Source: a virus. From it: a stretch of DNA of 26,149 nt. The stretch is taken from positions 1-26,149 of the IMG/VR virus record IMGVR_UViG_3300009008_000216; one strand, 5' to 3'. The notes under the pieces are model-generated. The model did no database searches, was not told where the DNA came from, and saw only the letters and a program-made list of their open reading frames with translations. Positions 7,560-13,935 of this stretch are shown here, one piece after another (positions within the stretch are counted from its first letter, which is position 1; every line of letters begins with the position of its first letter). The translations under genes were made by a program, and so were the position numbers.

Positions 7560-8657
7560 ATGAAGTTAAAAACAGAAACTGGCGAAATGTTAGTTTTAGA
7601 TGAAGCACAGGAATTTTATATTTCTGAAGATGCTACATCTGATACTTCAATTGAGGCGTCTGAAGTTGATGCATTATTAGAATCTGGCGATTTAGAAATT
7701 GTTGCTGAAGATACTGATGATGTAACAGAAGGTGCTGCTGAACCTAAAGCGAAAAATGTAACTAAAAAGAAAAAGGTAATTCCTGGCTCTGGTGAAGTTA
7801 TGGAAGATGACGACGAAGATGAAGACAAAGACGACATCGACGAAGACGCTGATGATGCAGACGAAGACGACGAAGTTGAAGAAGACAAAAAAGTTGCTAA
7901 AGAAGAAGTGGAATTAGAAGTTGACGTTCAAGAAGATATGGACGCATTATTCGACGGTCAAGAATTGACTGAAGACTTTAAAGCACGTACAACTTTAGTA
8001 TTTGAAACTGCTGTTAAGGCAAAAGTTAAAGAAAACCTATCTGCTATCGAAGAAAAAATGGAAGCAGAATTAACTGAAAAAACAGACGCACTTTTAGAAG
8101 ATGTGACTGCTAAGTTAGACGGTTACTTGGACTACATGGTAAACGAGTGGGTTGAAGAAAATAAACTTGCTGTTGAAAATGGTCTTAAAAATGAAATCTT
8201 AGAAGGTTTCGTTGGTGGTCTACAAACATTATTCGCAGAAAATTACATTGAAGTTCCAGAGGACAAACATAACATCCTTGACGAACAAGCAAATGAAATT
8301 GCTAGTCTTAAAGAAGAGTTAGATGCTGAAATGAATAAAAACATTGAAGCACGTAAGTCTTTAGATGAAGCAACTGCTAAAGAAATTTTTGGTACAGTTT
8401 CTGAAGATTTGACTATGACACAAGTAGAGAAGTTAAATTCTCTTGCTGAAGGTGTTGTATTTGAAGACGCTGAATCTTATACTGAAAAGTTAGAAACTTT
8501 GAAGGAAACTTACTTTCCTTCTGAAGAAAAGAAAGAAGAAGTAATTGCTGAAGGTAACACAGAAGTAAACACTAATGACGGAGAGATGAGCGATTCTATG
8601 AAACGCATCGTTGATTCGCTTTCATCAACAACCACGAAAAGCATCTTAGGTGCTTAA
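7560..8657 (+). CDS. gp22: Major prohead scaffold (core) protein
   Basis: 365 aa (T4 gp22 is 269). It forms the inner core on which gp23 assembles and is then degraded by gp21. The N-terminus MKLKTETGEMLVLDEA is followed by an unusually acidic stretch (about 80-115, runs of D and E), then a long helical coiled-coil region to about 350. Candidate gp21 sites include LDE15|A, LAE297|G and IAE331|G, as expected for a protein that must be shredded. The extra length over T4 is largely the acidic segment. An AGGAGAA site precedes the ATG and gene 23 follows after 31 bases. Confidence 0.92.
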   Translation: MKLKTETGEMLVLDEAQEFYISEDATSDTSIEASEVDALLESGDLEIVAEDTDDVTEGAAEPKAKNVTKKKKVIPGSGEVMEDDDEDEDKDDIDEDADDADEDDEVEEDKKVAKEEVELEVDVQEDMDALFDGQELTEDFKARTTLVFETAVKAKVKENLSAIEEKMEAELTEKTDALLEDVTAKLDGYLDYMVNEWVEENKLAVENGLKNEILEGFVGGLQTLFAENYIEVPEDKHNILDEQANEIASLKEELDAEMNKNIEARKSLDEATAKEIFGTVSEDLTMTQVEKLNSLAEGVVFEDAESYTEKLETLKETYFPSEEKKEEVIAEGNTEVNTNDGEMSDSMKRIVDSLSSTTTKSILGA

Positions 8658-10920: not shown

Positions 10921-12399
10921 ATGAGTGATATAGTAGTACACATCAAAGATGATGTATTTTTAAATGTAGAATGTGAGTCAGGTATTGGACATGAATTATC
11001 CGATTTCTTTACATTTGAAGTACCTGGCTATAAATTTATGCCAGCATATCGTGCTAGAGCATGGGACGGTAAAATACGTTTGTTCAATGTATTTGGTGGT
11101 GAGGTTTATGTAGGTCTTTTACCCTATATTATTGAGTTTGCAAAACGACGTGAATATACACTAGAATACCCTAAAAAACACATTATTCAAACCCTTAAAT
11201 CCACTGAGGACTTCGTTAAGGGGTTAAATCCCCACGTTAATTCGTCCCCTATATTACCATACGAGTATCAAATAAAAGCCATTAATCACGCAATTAACAA
11301 CGATAGGGCACTTTTACTATCACCAACTTCATCTGGTAAGTCGTTTATGATATATGGGTTAACACAATATTACCGTAAAGAACAAGACCGTAAAATTCTT
11401 ATTATTGTACCTACAACATCACTTGTTGAACAACTATACAAAGACTTTGCTGATTATGCTTCTGAACTAGACCCTACGTTTTCTGACGACAACGTTCATA
11501 GAATCTATTCAGGCAAAGAAAAAGAAACTGATAAACAAATCGTAATCACAACGTGGCAATCTATTTACAAATTAAAGAAACCATTCTTTGAACAATTTGG
11601 TTGTGTTATTGGTGATGAAGCACATAACTTCAAAGCAAAATCATTAACGTCTATTTTAACTAAGATGACAGATTGTAAATATAAGTTTGGTTTTACTGGT
11701 ACACTTGATGGTACAACTACGCATAAATTAGTGCTTGAGGGATTGTTTGGTGCTGTTAAAAAAGTTATCACAACGAAACAATTAATGGACGATGAAACAA
11801 TTACAAAATTACATATTGAAGCAATCATGTTGAAATATAAAGATGATGAACGCAAATTTGTAAAACAATTAACATACCAAGAAGAAATTGATTGGTTGAT
11901 TGACCACCCTAAACGAAATAAATTTATTTGTGACTTGTCTTTGAGTAGAACTAAAAACACATTAGTGTTATTTCAATTCGTAGAAAAGCACGGAAAGAAG
12001 TTATATGAATATCTTAAAAAGAAAGAACCAGAACGACCAATATTTTTCGTATCGGGAAACGTTGGAGTCGATGTTCGTGAGGAAATACGAGCAATCACCG
12101 AGAGTAGTACAAATGCTATTATCGTCGCTTCATATGGGACTTATTCTACTGGTATCAATATTCGCAATCTTCATAACATTATTTTTGCTCATCCTAGTAA
12201 ATCCCGTATTAGGAATTTACAATCGGTTGGTAGAGGTTTACGAAAATCTGAAGGAAAGGAAGTAGCAACGTTATTTGATTTGAGTGACGATTTGTCTTGG
12301 AAGAAACACAAAAACTTTTCATTGAAACATTTCATTGAAAGGGTAAAAATTTATAACACAGAAAAATTTGATTACAAACTAAGGAGCATTAAATTATGA
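10921..12399 (+). CDS. uvsW: UvsW recombination helicase (SF2)
   Basis: 492 aa (T4 UvsW is about 500). It unwinds R-loops and branch-migrates Holliday junctions and stalled forks, switching replication from origin to recombination mode. The N-terminal DNA-binding domain (about 1-100) contains FMPAYRARAWDGKIRLFN. Helicase motifs follow: Walker A SPTSSGKS (134-141), DEAH (232-235), FTGTLDG (motif III), and QSVGRGLRKSEG (motif VI). No clear Shine-Dalgarno site lies before the ATG, so translation is probably coupled to uvsY. The stop overlaps the next start (ATGA). Confidence 0.96.
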   Translation: MSDIVVHIKDDVFLNVECESGIGHELSDFFTFEVPGYKFMPAYRARAWDGKIRLFNVFGGEVYVGLLPYIIEFAKRREYTLEYPKKHIIQTLKSTEDFVKGLNPHVNSSPILPYEYQIKAINHAINNDRALLLSPTSSGKSFMIYGLTQYYRKEQDRKILIIVPTTSLVEQLYKDFADYASELDPTFSDDNVHRIYSGKEKETDKQIVITTWQSIYKLKKPFFEQFGCVIGDEAHNFKAKSLTSILTKMTDCKYKFGFTGTLDGTTTHKLVLEGLFGAVKKVITTKQLMDDETITKLHIEAIMLKYKDDERKFVKQLTYQEEIDWLIDHPKRNKFICDLSLSRTKNTLVLFQFVEKHGKKLYEYLKKKEPERPIFFVSGNVGVDVREEIRAITESSTNAIIVASYGTYSTGINIRNLHNIIFAHPSKSRIRNLQSVGRGLRKSEGKEVATLFDLSDDLSWKKHKNFSLKHFIERVKIYNTEKFDYKLRSIKL

Positions 12400-12698
12400 A
12401 TATATCAGTAGTACATATGAAACATACAGGCACAGAAGTTATTTGTGACCTAATTGAAATGAATGAAGAAAATATGGCAATCACTATCAAAGACCCACAG
12501 ACGATTGGTGTAGTATCCCACGATGACCAGGGCGCACAATTAGGATTTACACCATTTTTAATGAGTTGTAAGGACAATATTATACATTTAGCACTTCAAG
12601 ACATTTTATTCATTGCAGAAGCAAACCCACAAATCGCAGAACAATATCAAAGTATGTTTTCTCCAATTGATCTACCAAGTCAGAAAATAATCACATAA
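12396..12698 (+). CDS. Conserved small protein between uvsW and 55, unknown function
   Basis: 100 aa. The first two thirds are predicted to be beta-rich: TGTEVICDLIEMNEENMAIT followed by GFTPFLMSCKDNIIHLALQD and ILFIAEA. The GxxVxCxLxE...MNxxxxxIKDP pattern faintly recalls an Sm-like fold, but this is weak. The C-terminus (QIAEQYQSMFSPIDLPSQKI) looks flexible. The ATG overlaps the uvsW stop and has AAGGAG upstream, so it is the last gene of the uvsY-uvsW operon. T4-like marine phages often have a small gene at this place; its role is not known to me. Confidence 0.8.
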   Translation: MNISVVHMKHTGTEVICDLIEMNEENMAITIKDPQTIGVVSHDDQGAQLGFTPFLMSCKDNIIHLALQDILFIAEANPQIAEQYQSMFSPIDLPSQKIIT

Positions 12699-12703
12699 AT
12701 CGC

Positions 12704-12732
12704 TTGACTTTTGTATAAGTATAGTGTATAAT
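12704..12732 (+). promoter_or_regulatory. Strong sigma70-type promoter driving the non-coding region
   Basis: TTGACT (12704-12709), a 17-base spacer and TATAAT (12727-12732). It begins 6 bases after the preceding stop codon. No gene begins for nearly 600 bases downstream, and gene 55 has its own promoter, so its evident product is the structured RNA starting near 12739. A TATAAATA late-type octamer also occurs at 12750-12757, with a non-standard flank. Confidence 0.85.
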
Positions 12733-12792
12733 ATATTGAAAATTACACATATAAATACAAATTCTGCCTAGAACGTGAAAACTAGGATAGTA

Positions 12793-12806
12793 GCGAAAGT
12801 GAAGTG
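12793..12806 (+). repeat. Repeat copy 1: GCGAAAGTGAAGTG
   Basis: This string recurs at 13087-13099 as ACGAAGTGAAGTG, one base shorter. Both copies lie in the non-coding RNA, the second in a hairpin loop. Its core CGAAGTG is complementary to the CACTTCG in the hairpin at 13193-13199. Confidence 0.55.
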
Positions 12807-13044
12807 AGCAGACTATAATATCTTAAACGTAATTAGATTGAGGTCTGTAATTTGATGCCAACGTGTAATGGCTAAATAATTAAAATAATCGTGTCAGGAC
12901 TCTCACCACATAATGGTATCATATAGTCCAGTAGAGATGGGTGAATTGACATTCAGTGGCAAATAGGAATCCGTAACCTATCTCTAGGGATTATAGTGTG
13001 TATAGAAGTTAACTTCAAGATACTAGAAGAAAATATAGATTAAG

Positions 13045-13239
13045 AAAATGAAGACGGTCTTGCGAAGCAAGACCCGAAAACACGTAACGAAGTGAAGTGT
13101 TTTCGATTGGTGTAGTCGATGTAATTTTAAACTACATTAAGCTACTCCAGTGACCTGAAGTGTATCAAATGGTTCTTCAATCTACATATGGACACTTCGT
13201 GCCCATATGTGGGTTACTTCGTAACCCTGTCTTCATTTT
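13045..13239 (+). other. Closed multibranch hairpin domain at the 3' end of the RNA
   Basis: AAAATGAAGAC (13045-13055) is exactly complementary to GTCTTCATTTT (13229-13239). Inside are: 8 bp 13056-13063/13067-13074 with GAA triloop (core GCGAAGC); 9 bp CGAAAACAC/GTGTTTTCG (13075-83/13097-105); a weaker TGTAGT/ACTACA (13111-16/13131-36); TGAAG/CTTCA (13156-60/13175-79); 8 bp ACATATGG/CCATATGT plus CAC/GTG (13184-13210) with TTC loop; and 7 bp GGGTTAC/GTAACCC (13211-13227) with TTC loop. The last two hairpins abut and could stack. Confidence 0.75.
13087..13099 (+). repeat. Repeat copy 2: ACGAAGTGAAGTG
   Basis: Second copy of the motif at 12793-12806. Bases 13087-13094 (ACGAAGTG) are mainly in the loop of the CGAAAACAC/GTGTTTTCG hairpin and are perfectly complementary to CACTTCGT at 13193-13200, allowing a loop-loop contact. 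Confidence 0.55.
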
Positions 13240-13259
13240 ATTTAATTCTAGTTACTTGC

Positions 13260-13288
13260 TAGACATATAGTCATTTCTATGTTATAAT
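13260..13288 (+). promoter_or_regulatory. Extended -10 promoter of gene 55
   Basis: TAGACA (13260-13265, five of six to TTGACA), a 17-base spacer and TATAAT (13283-13288) preceded by TGT. The predicted start is near 13295, giving a ~30-base leader with AAAGGA before the GTG start codon. Confidence 0.8.
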
Positions 13289-13323
13289 TAATCTATTAAA
13301 ACTACATTAATAAAGGATATACA

Positions 13324-13935
13324 GTGTCAAAAGAAATTAAAACACCAGTCGATAAGGATAATAAAAATCATTACATTAATAATAAGGATTTCTTAGCGGC
13401 TTTAATCGAATATCAAGCAGATATTAAAGATAAAGAAGAAAGAGGTTTACCAAAACCTTATGTAACTGATTATATTGCTAGGTGTTTTCTTCAAATTGCT
13501 CAACGTCTTTCTTTTAGACCTAATTTTATTAACTACACTTATAAAGATGATATGATTAGTGATGGGTTAGAAAATTGTTTAGCATATATGCATAATTTCA
13601 ATCCAGAAAAATCTGATAATCCTTTTGCATATTTTACACAAATTATTTACTATGCATTCCTTAGAAGAATTCAAAAAGAGAAAAAACAACAGTATGTGAA
13701 GTACAAGTATTTTGATACTGCAGGTGGTTTTGAGCAAATGGACGAATTACAAGAACACGACAAAGAATCATTTGACTTTATTAATGATAAAGGGTCTGTA
13801 GATTTTCATATTCACATTAAAGAATTTATTGACGATATGGAAAAGAAAGAAGCAGAGAAAAAAGCAAAAAGGGAAGCGAAGATTAAAGAAAAAGAAATGA
13901 AGCAAAATAATTTATCATTCTTTATGGGTGTGTAA
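13324..13935 (+). CDS. gp55: Late-transcription sigma factor
   Basis: 203 aa (T4 gp55 is 185). It binds host RNA polymerase and recognises TATAAATA late promoters. Similarity to T4 includes the start (HYINNKDFLAALIEYQADI), DDMISDGLENCLAYMHNFNP (T4 EMIADGIEASIKGLHNF), and NPFAYFTQIIYYAFLRRIQK then EKKQQYVKYKYF, the sigma region 2-like part. The C-terminal NLSFFMGV corresponds to the hydrophobic gp45-clamp-binding tail of T4 gp55 (SLDFLYE). Residues 173-195 are a Lys/Glu-rich linker. The start is GTG at 13324, with AAAGGA 6 bases upstream and no better ATG. Gene 47 starts directly after the stop. Confidence 0.94.
   Translation: MSKEIKTPVDKDNKNHYINNKDFLAALIEYQADIKDKEERGLPKPYVTDYIARCFLQIAQRLSFRPNFINYTYKDDMISDGLENCLAYMHNFNPEKSDNPFAYFTQIIYYAFLRRIQKEKKQQYVKYKYFDTAGGFEQMDELQEHDKESFDFINDKGSVDFHIHIKEFIDDMEKKEAEKKAKREAKIKEKEMKQNNLSFFMGV

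Follow-up and report, generated by a model that had tools for sequence, protein, structure and literature searches.

Comparative evidence for a previously undescribed pseudoknotted RNA gene in marine T4-like phages

Few large structured RNAs are known from phages. GOLLD, a phage and prophage RNA of >800 nt, has a universally conserved 3' part and a less conserved 5' part, and ROOL, also found in phages and prophages, is ~660 nt long and contains multiple pseudoknots (PMC12286853). Conserved structured RNAs of marine T4-like phages include the manA, wcaG, and PhotoRC-II motifs (PMC2864571), which are of the leader type and belong to metabolic or photosynthesis genes. Here we analyzed a 26,149-nt stretch of viral DNA (IMG/VR record IMGVR_UViG_3300009008_000216, positions 1 to 26,149; referred to here as the window), in which an earlier note based on the sequence alone had proposed a ~500-nt phage RNA, possibly of a new class, between uvsW and the late sigma factor gene 55.

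A cmscan search against Rfam 15 at the gathering score yielded no match for the window or for eight homologous loci. When the threshold was relaxed to an E value of ≤10 over positions 12650-13350, only a chance match to mir-136 was obtained; none of the families that the note had suggested checking (GOLLD, ROOL, and group I intron) matched, nor did HDV or any other ribozyme. No test run here identified the RNA of the gap as GOLLD, ROOL, or a group I intron. The RNA resembles GOLLD in being large and ornate and in having a less conserved 5' part beside a conserved 3' part (PMC12286853) but differs in its helix order, in the size of its conserved core (only ~225 nt), and in having no Rfam match. 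It resembles ROOL in total size and in being pseudoknotted (PMC12286853), although it has no Rfam match and there is no tRNA island in the window. ARAGORN detected no tRNAs in the window, whereas both GOLLD and ROOL usually, but not absolutely, occur in the vicinity of tRNA genes. The RNA also had no match to manA, wcaG, or PhotoRC-II, and we found no description of it in the literature outside subscription journals. If phage RNAs of unknown function are grouped more loosely, GOLLD and ROOL are precedents; the novelty lies in the RNA family and its fold. Taken together with the comparisons below, these results support the presence in marine T4-like phages of a previously undescribed folded RNA gene with a core of ~225 nt and a total length of ~500 nt.

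All features of the window described below lie on its + strand. The gap (12699-13323; 625 nt) separates orf100 (12396..12698), which encodes an Sm-like protein, from gene 55 (13324..13935; phrog_234, E = 4e-61; PDB 7d7c gp55, E = 7e-21). The identities of uvsW, orf100, and gp55 were assigned using Pfam and PHROGs, with additional support from PDB 7d7c for gp55 and from a profile and a predicted fold for orf100. The statement of the earlier note that these 625 bases contain no credible protein gene was borne out, with no open reading frame (ORF) of ≥45 amino acids on either strand. In a 90-kb contig with identical sequence, the gap was the sole ORF-free stretch of >250 nt. The folding energy of the gap RNA (−140.8 kcal/mol) was far below the mean of shuffled sequences (−108.0 kcal/mol; z = −5.45), and none of 100 shuffles equaled it. 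Both promoters that the note had named were also present, namely a σ70 promoter of the RNA (12704..12732; TTGACT-17-TATAAT) and a separate σ70 promoter of gene 55 (13260..13288), each with 11 of 12 consensus bases. The note had missed an exact T4-type late promoter box, TATAAATA, at 12750..12757, which directly precedes the RNA core. By analogy with T4, this box would be gp55 dependent, and a late transcript would probably start at ~12763, the 5' edge of the core. The window contains seven exact TATAAATA boxes (2254, 4469, 7491, 9961, 12750, 23234, and 24045), all on the + strand.

To collect the corresponding gaps from related phages, a gp55-seeded scan was performed, which provided 80 loci (L numbers below denote loci). 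The core (~220 nt) aligned in 44 distinct gaps between uvsW or orf100 and gene 55, with nhmmer E values of 1e-22 to 5e-63. Further scans used patterns for parts of the core, bacterial genomes, and a second gp55-seeded search. In total, homologues were identified by profile or model match in ~88 IMG/VR contigs, some with identical sequences, and in one contig of a bacterial metagenome-assembled genome (MAG). The RNA was present as a single copy in each of five long contigs. The RNA had no match in distant relatives retrieved by the gp55 scans (gp55 identity, ≤~57%), and the long ORF-free gaps of L060 and L061 gave no model match. A blastn search of the window RNA, an A-type relative, and a B-type relative (types defined below) against 50,697 phage records returned no matches; thus, no phage of that collection is known as a carrier. 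Several candidates were rejected as chance matches: a weak model match in HTVC008M (18.8 bits; E = 0.04) lay inside the tail-tube gene, and pattern matches in L146, L150, L155, L157, L158, L163-L172, and L174-L179 had no profile match. The match in L146 (~8541-8574 of a 142-kb contig) fell in a structured-looking stretch just 3' of a tRNA; by profile and by model, this stretch is unrelated to the RNA family.

The conserved core spans 12761..12987. Two types of 5' domain with differing folds were recognized, type A (as in the window) and type B (L141-L145, L147-L149, L151-L154, and L160-L162), and both share the pseudoknotted domain described below. Some A-type phages (L007, L023, L028, and L156) have a shortened 5' domain. 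In L056-L059, an insertion of ~250 nt separates the core from the conserved promoter region. Downstream of the core, the window contains a variable hairpin array (13045..13239; z = −7.7 for the 3' part) closed by AAAATGAAGAC/GTCTTCATTTT and including a terminator-like hairpin at 13211-13227 (two such sites in the region versus 0.1 expected). The perfect helices of 8, 9, 7, and 11 bp to which the earlier note had drawn attention (13056-13074, 13075-13110, 13211-13227, and 13045-13055/13229-13239) do exist, but all of them sit in this lineage-variable array and none is part of the conserved core. Between the window phage and its near relatives, the core was 78 to 87% identical versus 32 to 39% for the region after the core in forced global alignments, and BLAST found no match between the window's post-core region and the nearest relatives. 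The pair L015 and L018 had cores with 99% identity and arrays with 51% identity. On these comparisons, the 3' hairpin array turns over completely between phages whose cores are 78 to 99% identical. The relatives have their own, different hairpin arrays at the same place (z = −0.9 to −8.1). No array precedes gene 55 in L134 and most B-type phages, and the distance from the core to gene 55 in L134 and the B-type phages is only ~75 to 100 nt. Mini-hairpins with the pattern GA(R)C(R)AAG(Y)GA (e.g., GAGCGAAGCGAG and GAACGAAGTGAG) recur in the arrays of the window and its relatives. In the 99-kb contig G009, the 9-mer CGAAGTGAG was found only within the RNA.

The 5' part of the core in the window folds into helix f (12767-12771 with 12782-12786), helix h (12810-12813 with 12843-12846; inner stem, 12820-12823 with 12835-12838), and helix i (12849-12851 with 12879-12881; inner stem, 12857-12860 with 12869-12872). 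It is followed by a pseudoknotted 3' domain of six helices (12890..12987) arranged in the order a-b-c-d-a'-e-c'. Stem a (12892-12895/12958-12961) and stem c (12933-12936/12982-12985) cross each other to form the pseudoknot and are accompanied by hairpin b (12897-12900/12926-12929), hairpin d (12939-12943/12950-12954), and hairpin e (12963-12967/12977-12981). The sixth helix is a 2-bp contact between 12890-12891 and 12972-12973 in the loop of e, which paired in 100% of cases and included a switch from G-C to C-G. A minimum-energy fold missed this conserved pseudoknot. RNAalifold applied to a MAFFT alignment predicted 36 pairs, 23 of which showed double changes.

Covariation, for which the note had suggested R-scape, was assessed by a G-test with average-product correction, using a null model in which the changes along a FastTree tree were replayed at randomly chosen positions. 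Among 38 A-type sequences, nine pairs were significant (E < 0.05). Seven of these were canonical and fell in helices f, h (inner), i (inner), and d; of the other two, one closes hairpin g at its small loop (82% canonical), and the other is a noncanonical loop pair (12773-12777). The significant pairs of helix f (12770-12783 and 12771-12782) each had seven to eight double-change events, the inner pair of helix h (12821-12837; E < 0.05) was UA in 19 sequences and CG in 19, and helix i of the A-type sequences had one pair at E < 0.05 (12859-12870) and another at E < 0.07 (12850-12880). Compensatory variants of AGAC/GTCT in the region of helix h were present in L039 and L056. For the shared domain, compared across 55 sequences of both types, six pairs were significant (E < 0.05): three in d, one in i, one in stem a (12892-12961; 100% canonical), and a partly noncanonical pair (12896-12957) that may represent a tertiary contact. 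The variable pairs of stem c were individually nonsignificant under the tree-based null (E = 3 to 151), yet they were 98 to 100% canonical. Stem c occurred as AGAG/CUCU, AAGG/CCUU, UAAG/CUUA, and GAAG/CUUU and stem a as UGUC/GGCA, GGUC/GGCC, and GAUC/GAUC; both pseudoknot stems vary in a compensatory manner. Overall, compensatory changes exceeded the phylogenetic expectation at nine pairs of the A-type core and six of the shared domain, as would be expected for a structured noncoding RNA, and the homologues have kept a structure through such changes.

The six-helix model was assessed on A3, a structure-blind MAFFT alignment of 50 sequences. It had 97.9% paired cells, 16 double-change pairs, and a covariation score of 0.464, versus 36 to 43%, 2 to 4 pairs, and scores of 0.06 to 0.16 for controls in which the partners were slid by one to three columns. 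Pairing of hairpin d was lowered in some rows of A3 because MAFFT misplaced one gap there, which was partly corrected by realignment (A4). A covariance model (R1) was built from stems a, b, d, and e only, leaving out the crossing stem c, and subsequently found L229/L230, L232, and L234, none of which had been used in building it. After the addition of three held-out sequences to A3 (53 in total), 98.4% of cells were paired, and stem c was 99.5% paired although it was not included in R1. In the later finds, a pair of hairpin e had changed from G-C to A-U, a double change that kept the fold. Across the pairs, G-U was observed 76 times and A-C 11 times, which points to the + strand as the acting strand.

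Judged by comparison among the homologues, the RNA has a conserved structure, a defined acting strand, a promoter of its own, independence from gene 55, and mobility. Of 44 homologues, 41 had a σ70 promoter upstream of the core (versus 13% of shuffled upstream regions), and 11 had an exact TATAAATA late box (versus 3% of shuffled regions). The RNA lies beside gene 55 in nearly all of the genomes found, a share that is biased upward by the use of gp55 as the seed of two scans. In L129, on a contig with neither uvsW nor gene 55, the RNA is antisense to both neighbors and has its own σ70 and late promoters. In L159, its neighbors are a gp23-like capsid gene and gp19, and the cluster of uvsW, the Sm-like gene, and gene 55 occurs elsewhere without it. 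L233 has an empty site, in which uvsW and gene 55 are 66 nt apart and the RNA is absent. With its own promoter and its independence from flanking genes, the RNA has the properties of a stand-alone transcription unit, and its lack of an Rfam match, compensatory changes, and occurrence away from gene 55 support the proposal of a possibly new class of ~500-nt phage RNA. From the promoters and the selection on base pairs, we infer that the RNA is transcribed.

The neighboring orf100 has an Sm/LSm fold, as indicated by both profile and structure. A profile of orf100 relatives, including distant members, matched PDB 3BY7, an Sm-like protein from a marine metagenome (E = 3e-15), whereas the orf100 of the window alone did not match 3BY7 without the family profile. 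The AlphaFold2 model of orf100 (pLDDT, 87.6) matched 3BY7 in a Foldseek search (E = 1.2e-05; TM, 0.76/0.87). Given this predicted fold, it is tempting to suppose that orf100 would form a ribonucleoprotein with the RNA next to it. Many marine T4-like phages have a conserved gene of the orf100 type between uvsW and gene 55; some of them lack the RNA (e.g., HTVC008M and L062), and no such gene was found in the fetched flanks of the B-type RNAs. On these grounds, a strict partnership was rejected.

One homologue (L173) was found in a contig of a Methylococcaceae MAG (JAPYOW010000051.1, 1-1110), which contains the full RNA core (model score, 71 bits) 60 nt from the contig end, with two TATAAATA boxes upstream. 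Its neighbors are a recombinase-like ORF, glmS, and purB. glmS is a common integration site, and the copy may be part of a phage-derived or satellite element near this gene; a chimeric contig or a binning error is also possible. No gp55 match was found in this MAG, and relatives of the recombinase-like ORF were absent from the viral and plasmid collections, whereas 60 related genomes contained just two, both distant.

We consider it probable that the RNA is the product of a stand-alone phage gene and acts in trans. Transcription would start at the σ70 promoter, with a second start in some phages at a late promoter of the gp55 type, giving a transcript of ~475 to 500 nt. This RNA would fold into an exchangeable 5' domain, the conserved domain with the pseudoknot, and a 3' hairpin array, present in most lineages, that evolves fast and ends in the terminator-like hairpin. 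It would most likely bind a conserved host or phage protein through the pseudoknotted domain, whose loops (UGAANNNACA and CGUAACC) are strongly conserved, and the swapped end domains may tune stability or partner choice to the host. We infer protein binding, trans action, and an effect on infection. The direct position upstream of gene 55 in most phages found, at only ~75 to 100 nt in L134 and the B-type phages, would instead suit control of gene 55 in cis, by a long leader or riboswitch-like element on the same transcript. This is improbable given that gene 55 has its own σ70 promoter within the last 130 nt before the gene in all 44 homologues (12% of shuffled regions), that the RNA is antisense to unrelated neighbors in L129 and apart from gene 55 in L159, that gene 55 occurs without the RNA in L233, and that the RNA ends in a terminator-like hairpin. 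A base-pairing regulatory RNA, of which many phages carry examples, could likewise have a stand-alone promoter and a terminator-like end, and its fast-changing 3' array or its loops could pair with host or phage mRNAs; we regard this as rather unlikely, because the strongest selection is on an elaborate pseudoknot, which is unusual for a simple antisense RNA, and L134 and most B-type phages lack the 3' array.

The strong promoter, the structured RNA of ~500 nt, and the position beside uvsW are also what one might expect of a replication-origin transcript that primes DNA synthesis via an R-loop, like ColE1 RNA II or the T4 origin transcripts; in T4, an origin lies near uvsY, and UvsW unwinds R-loops. 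We give this explanation as little credence as the leader, since the RNA moves between loci and is conserved at the level of RNA pairs, with G-U favored over A-C; in addition, the cumulative GC skew of three contigs of 90 to 124 kb has no turn at the RNA, although such a turn may be lacking in T4-like phages in any case. The least probable of these explanations is that the RNA is a ribozyme or the remnant of a self-splicing intron. The highly conserved loops and the crossing topology (a-b-c-d-a'-e-c'), in which two crossing stems enclose hairpins, recall P1, P2, P3, and P4 of HDV-like ribozymes or P3/P7/P8 of group I introns, a likeness of topology only. The Rfam models of group I introns, HDV, and other ribozymes gave no match even at an E value of 10, and the RNA lies between genes rather than within one. 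Moreover, stems e and c are contiguous and thus leave no J4/2 or J8/7 strand, where those ribozymes hold their catalytic residues: the catalytic C of HDV-like ribozymes lies between P4 and the 3' strand of P2, whereas here the 3' strand of e (12977-12981) abuts that of c (12982-12985), and for group I introns, a P3-P9 core was not found and the P8-P7 linker is absent in alignment A3.

Beyond the trans-acting, protein-binding RNA that we favor, the family might constitute a new class of mobile phage RNA machine built from modules, in which a conserved pseudoknot body carries 5' and 3' parts that can be swapped. It would be common to lytic T4-like phages and an element of a bacterial chromosome (a possible phage satellite) and would operate as a phage ribonucleoprotein, perhaps with the Sm-like protein of the phage itself in some lineages. 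We hold this wider proposal to be unlikely. A new family with no relative in Rfam 15 has been found in marine viruses; its pseudoknot is supported by covariation, its boundary is defined, and a covariance model for it is at hand. The rates of evolution differ greatly among the core, the 5' domain, and the 3' array, and the function of the RNA can therefore be tested through natural experiments, namely swapped domains, relocated copies, and an empty site.

On one T4-like phage contig (L144, 3641-6922), fadB-like and fadA-like beta-oxidation genes lie between uvsW and the B-type RNA.
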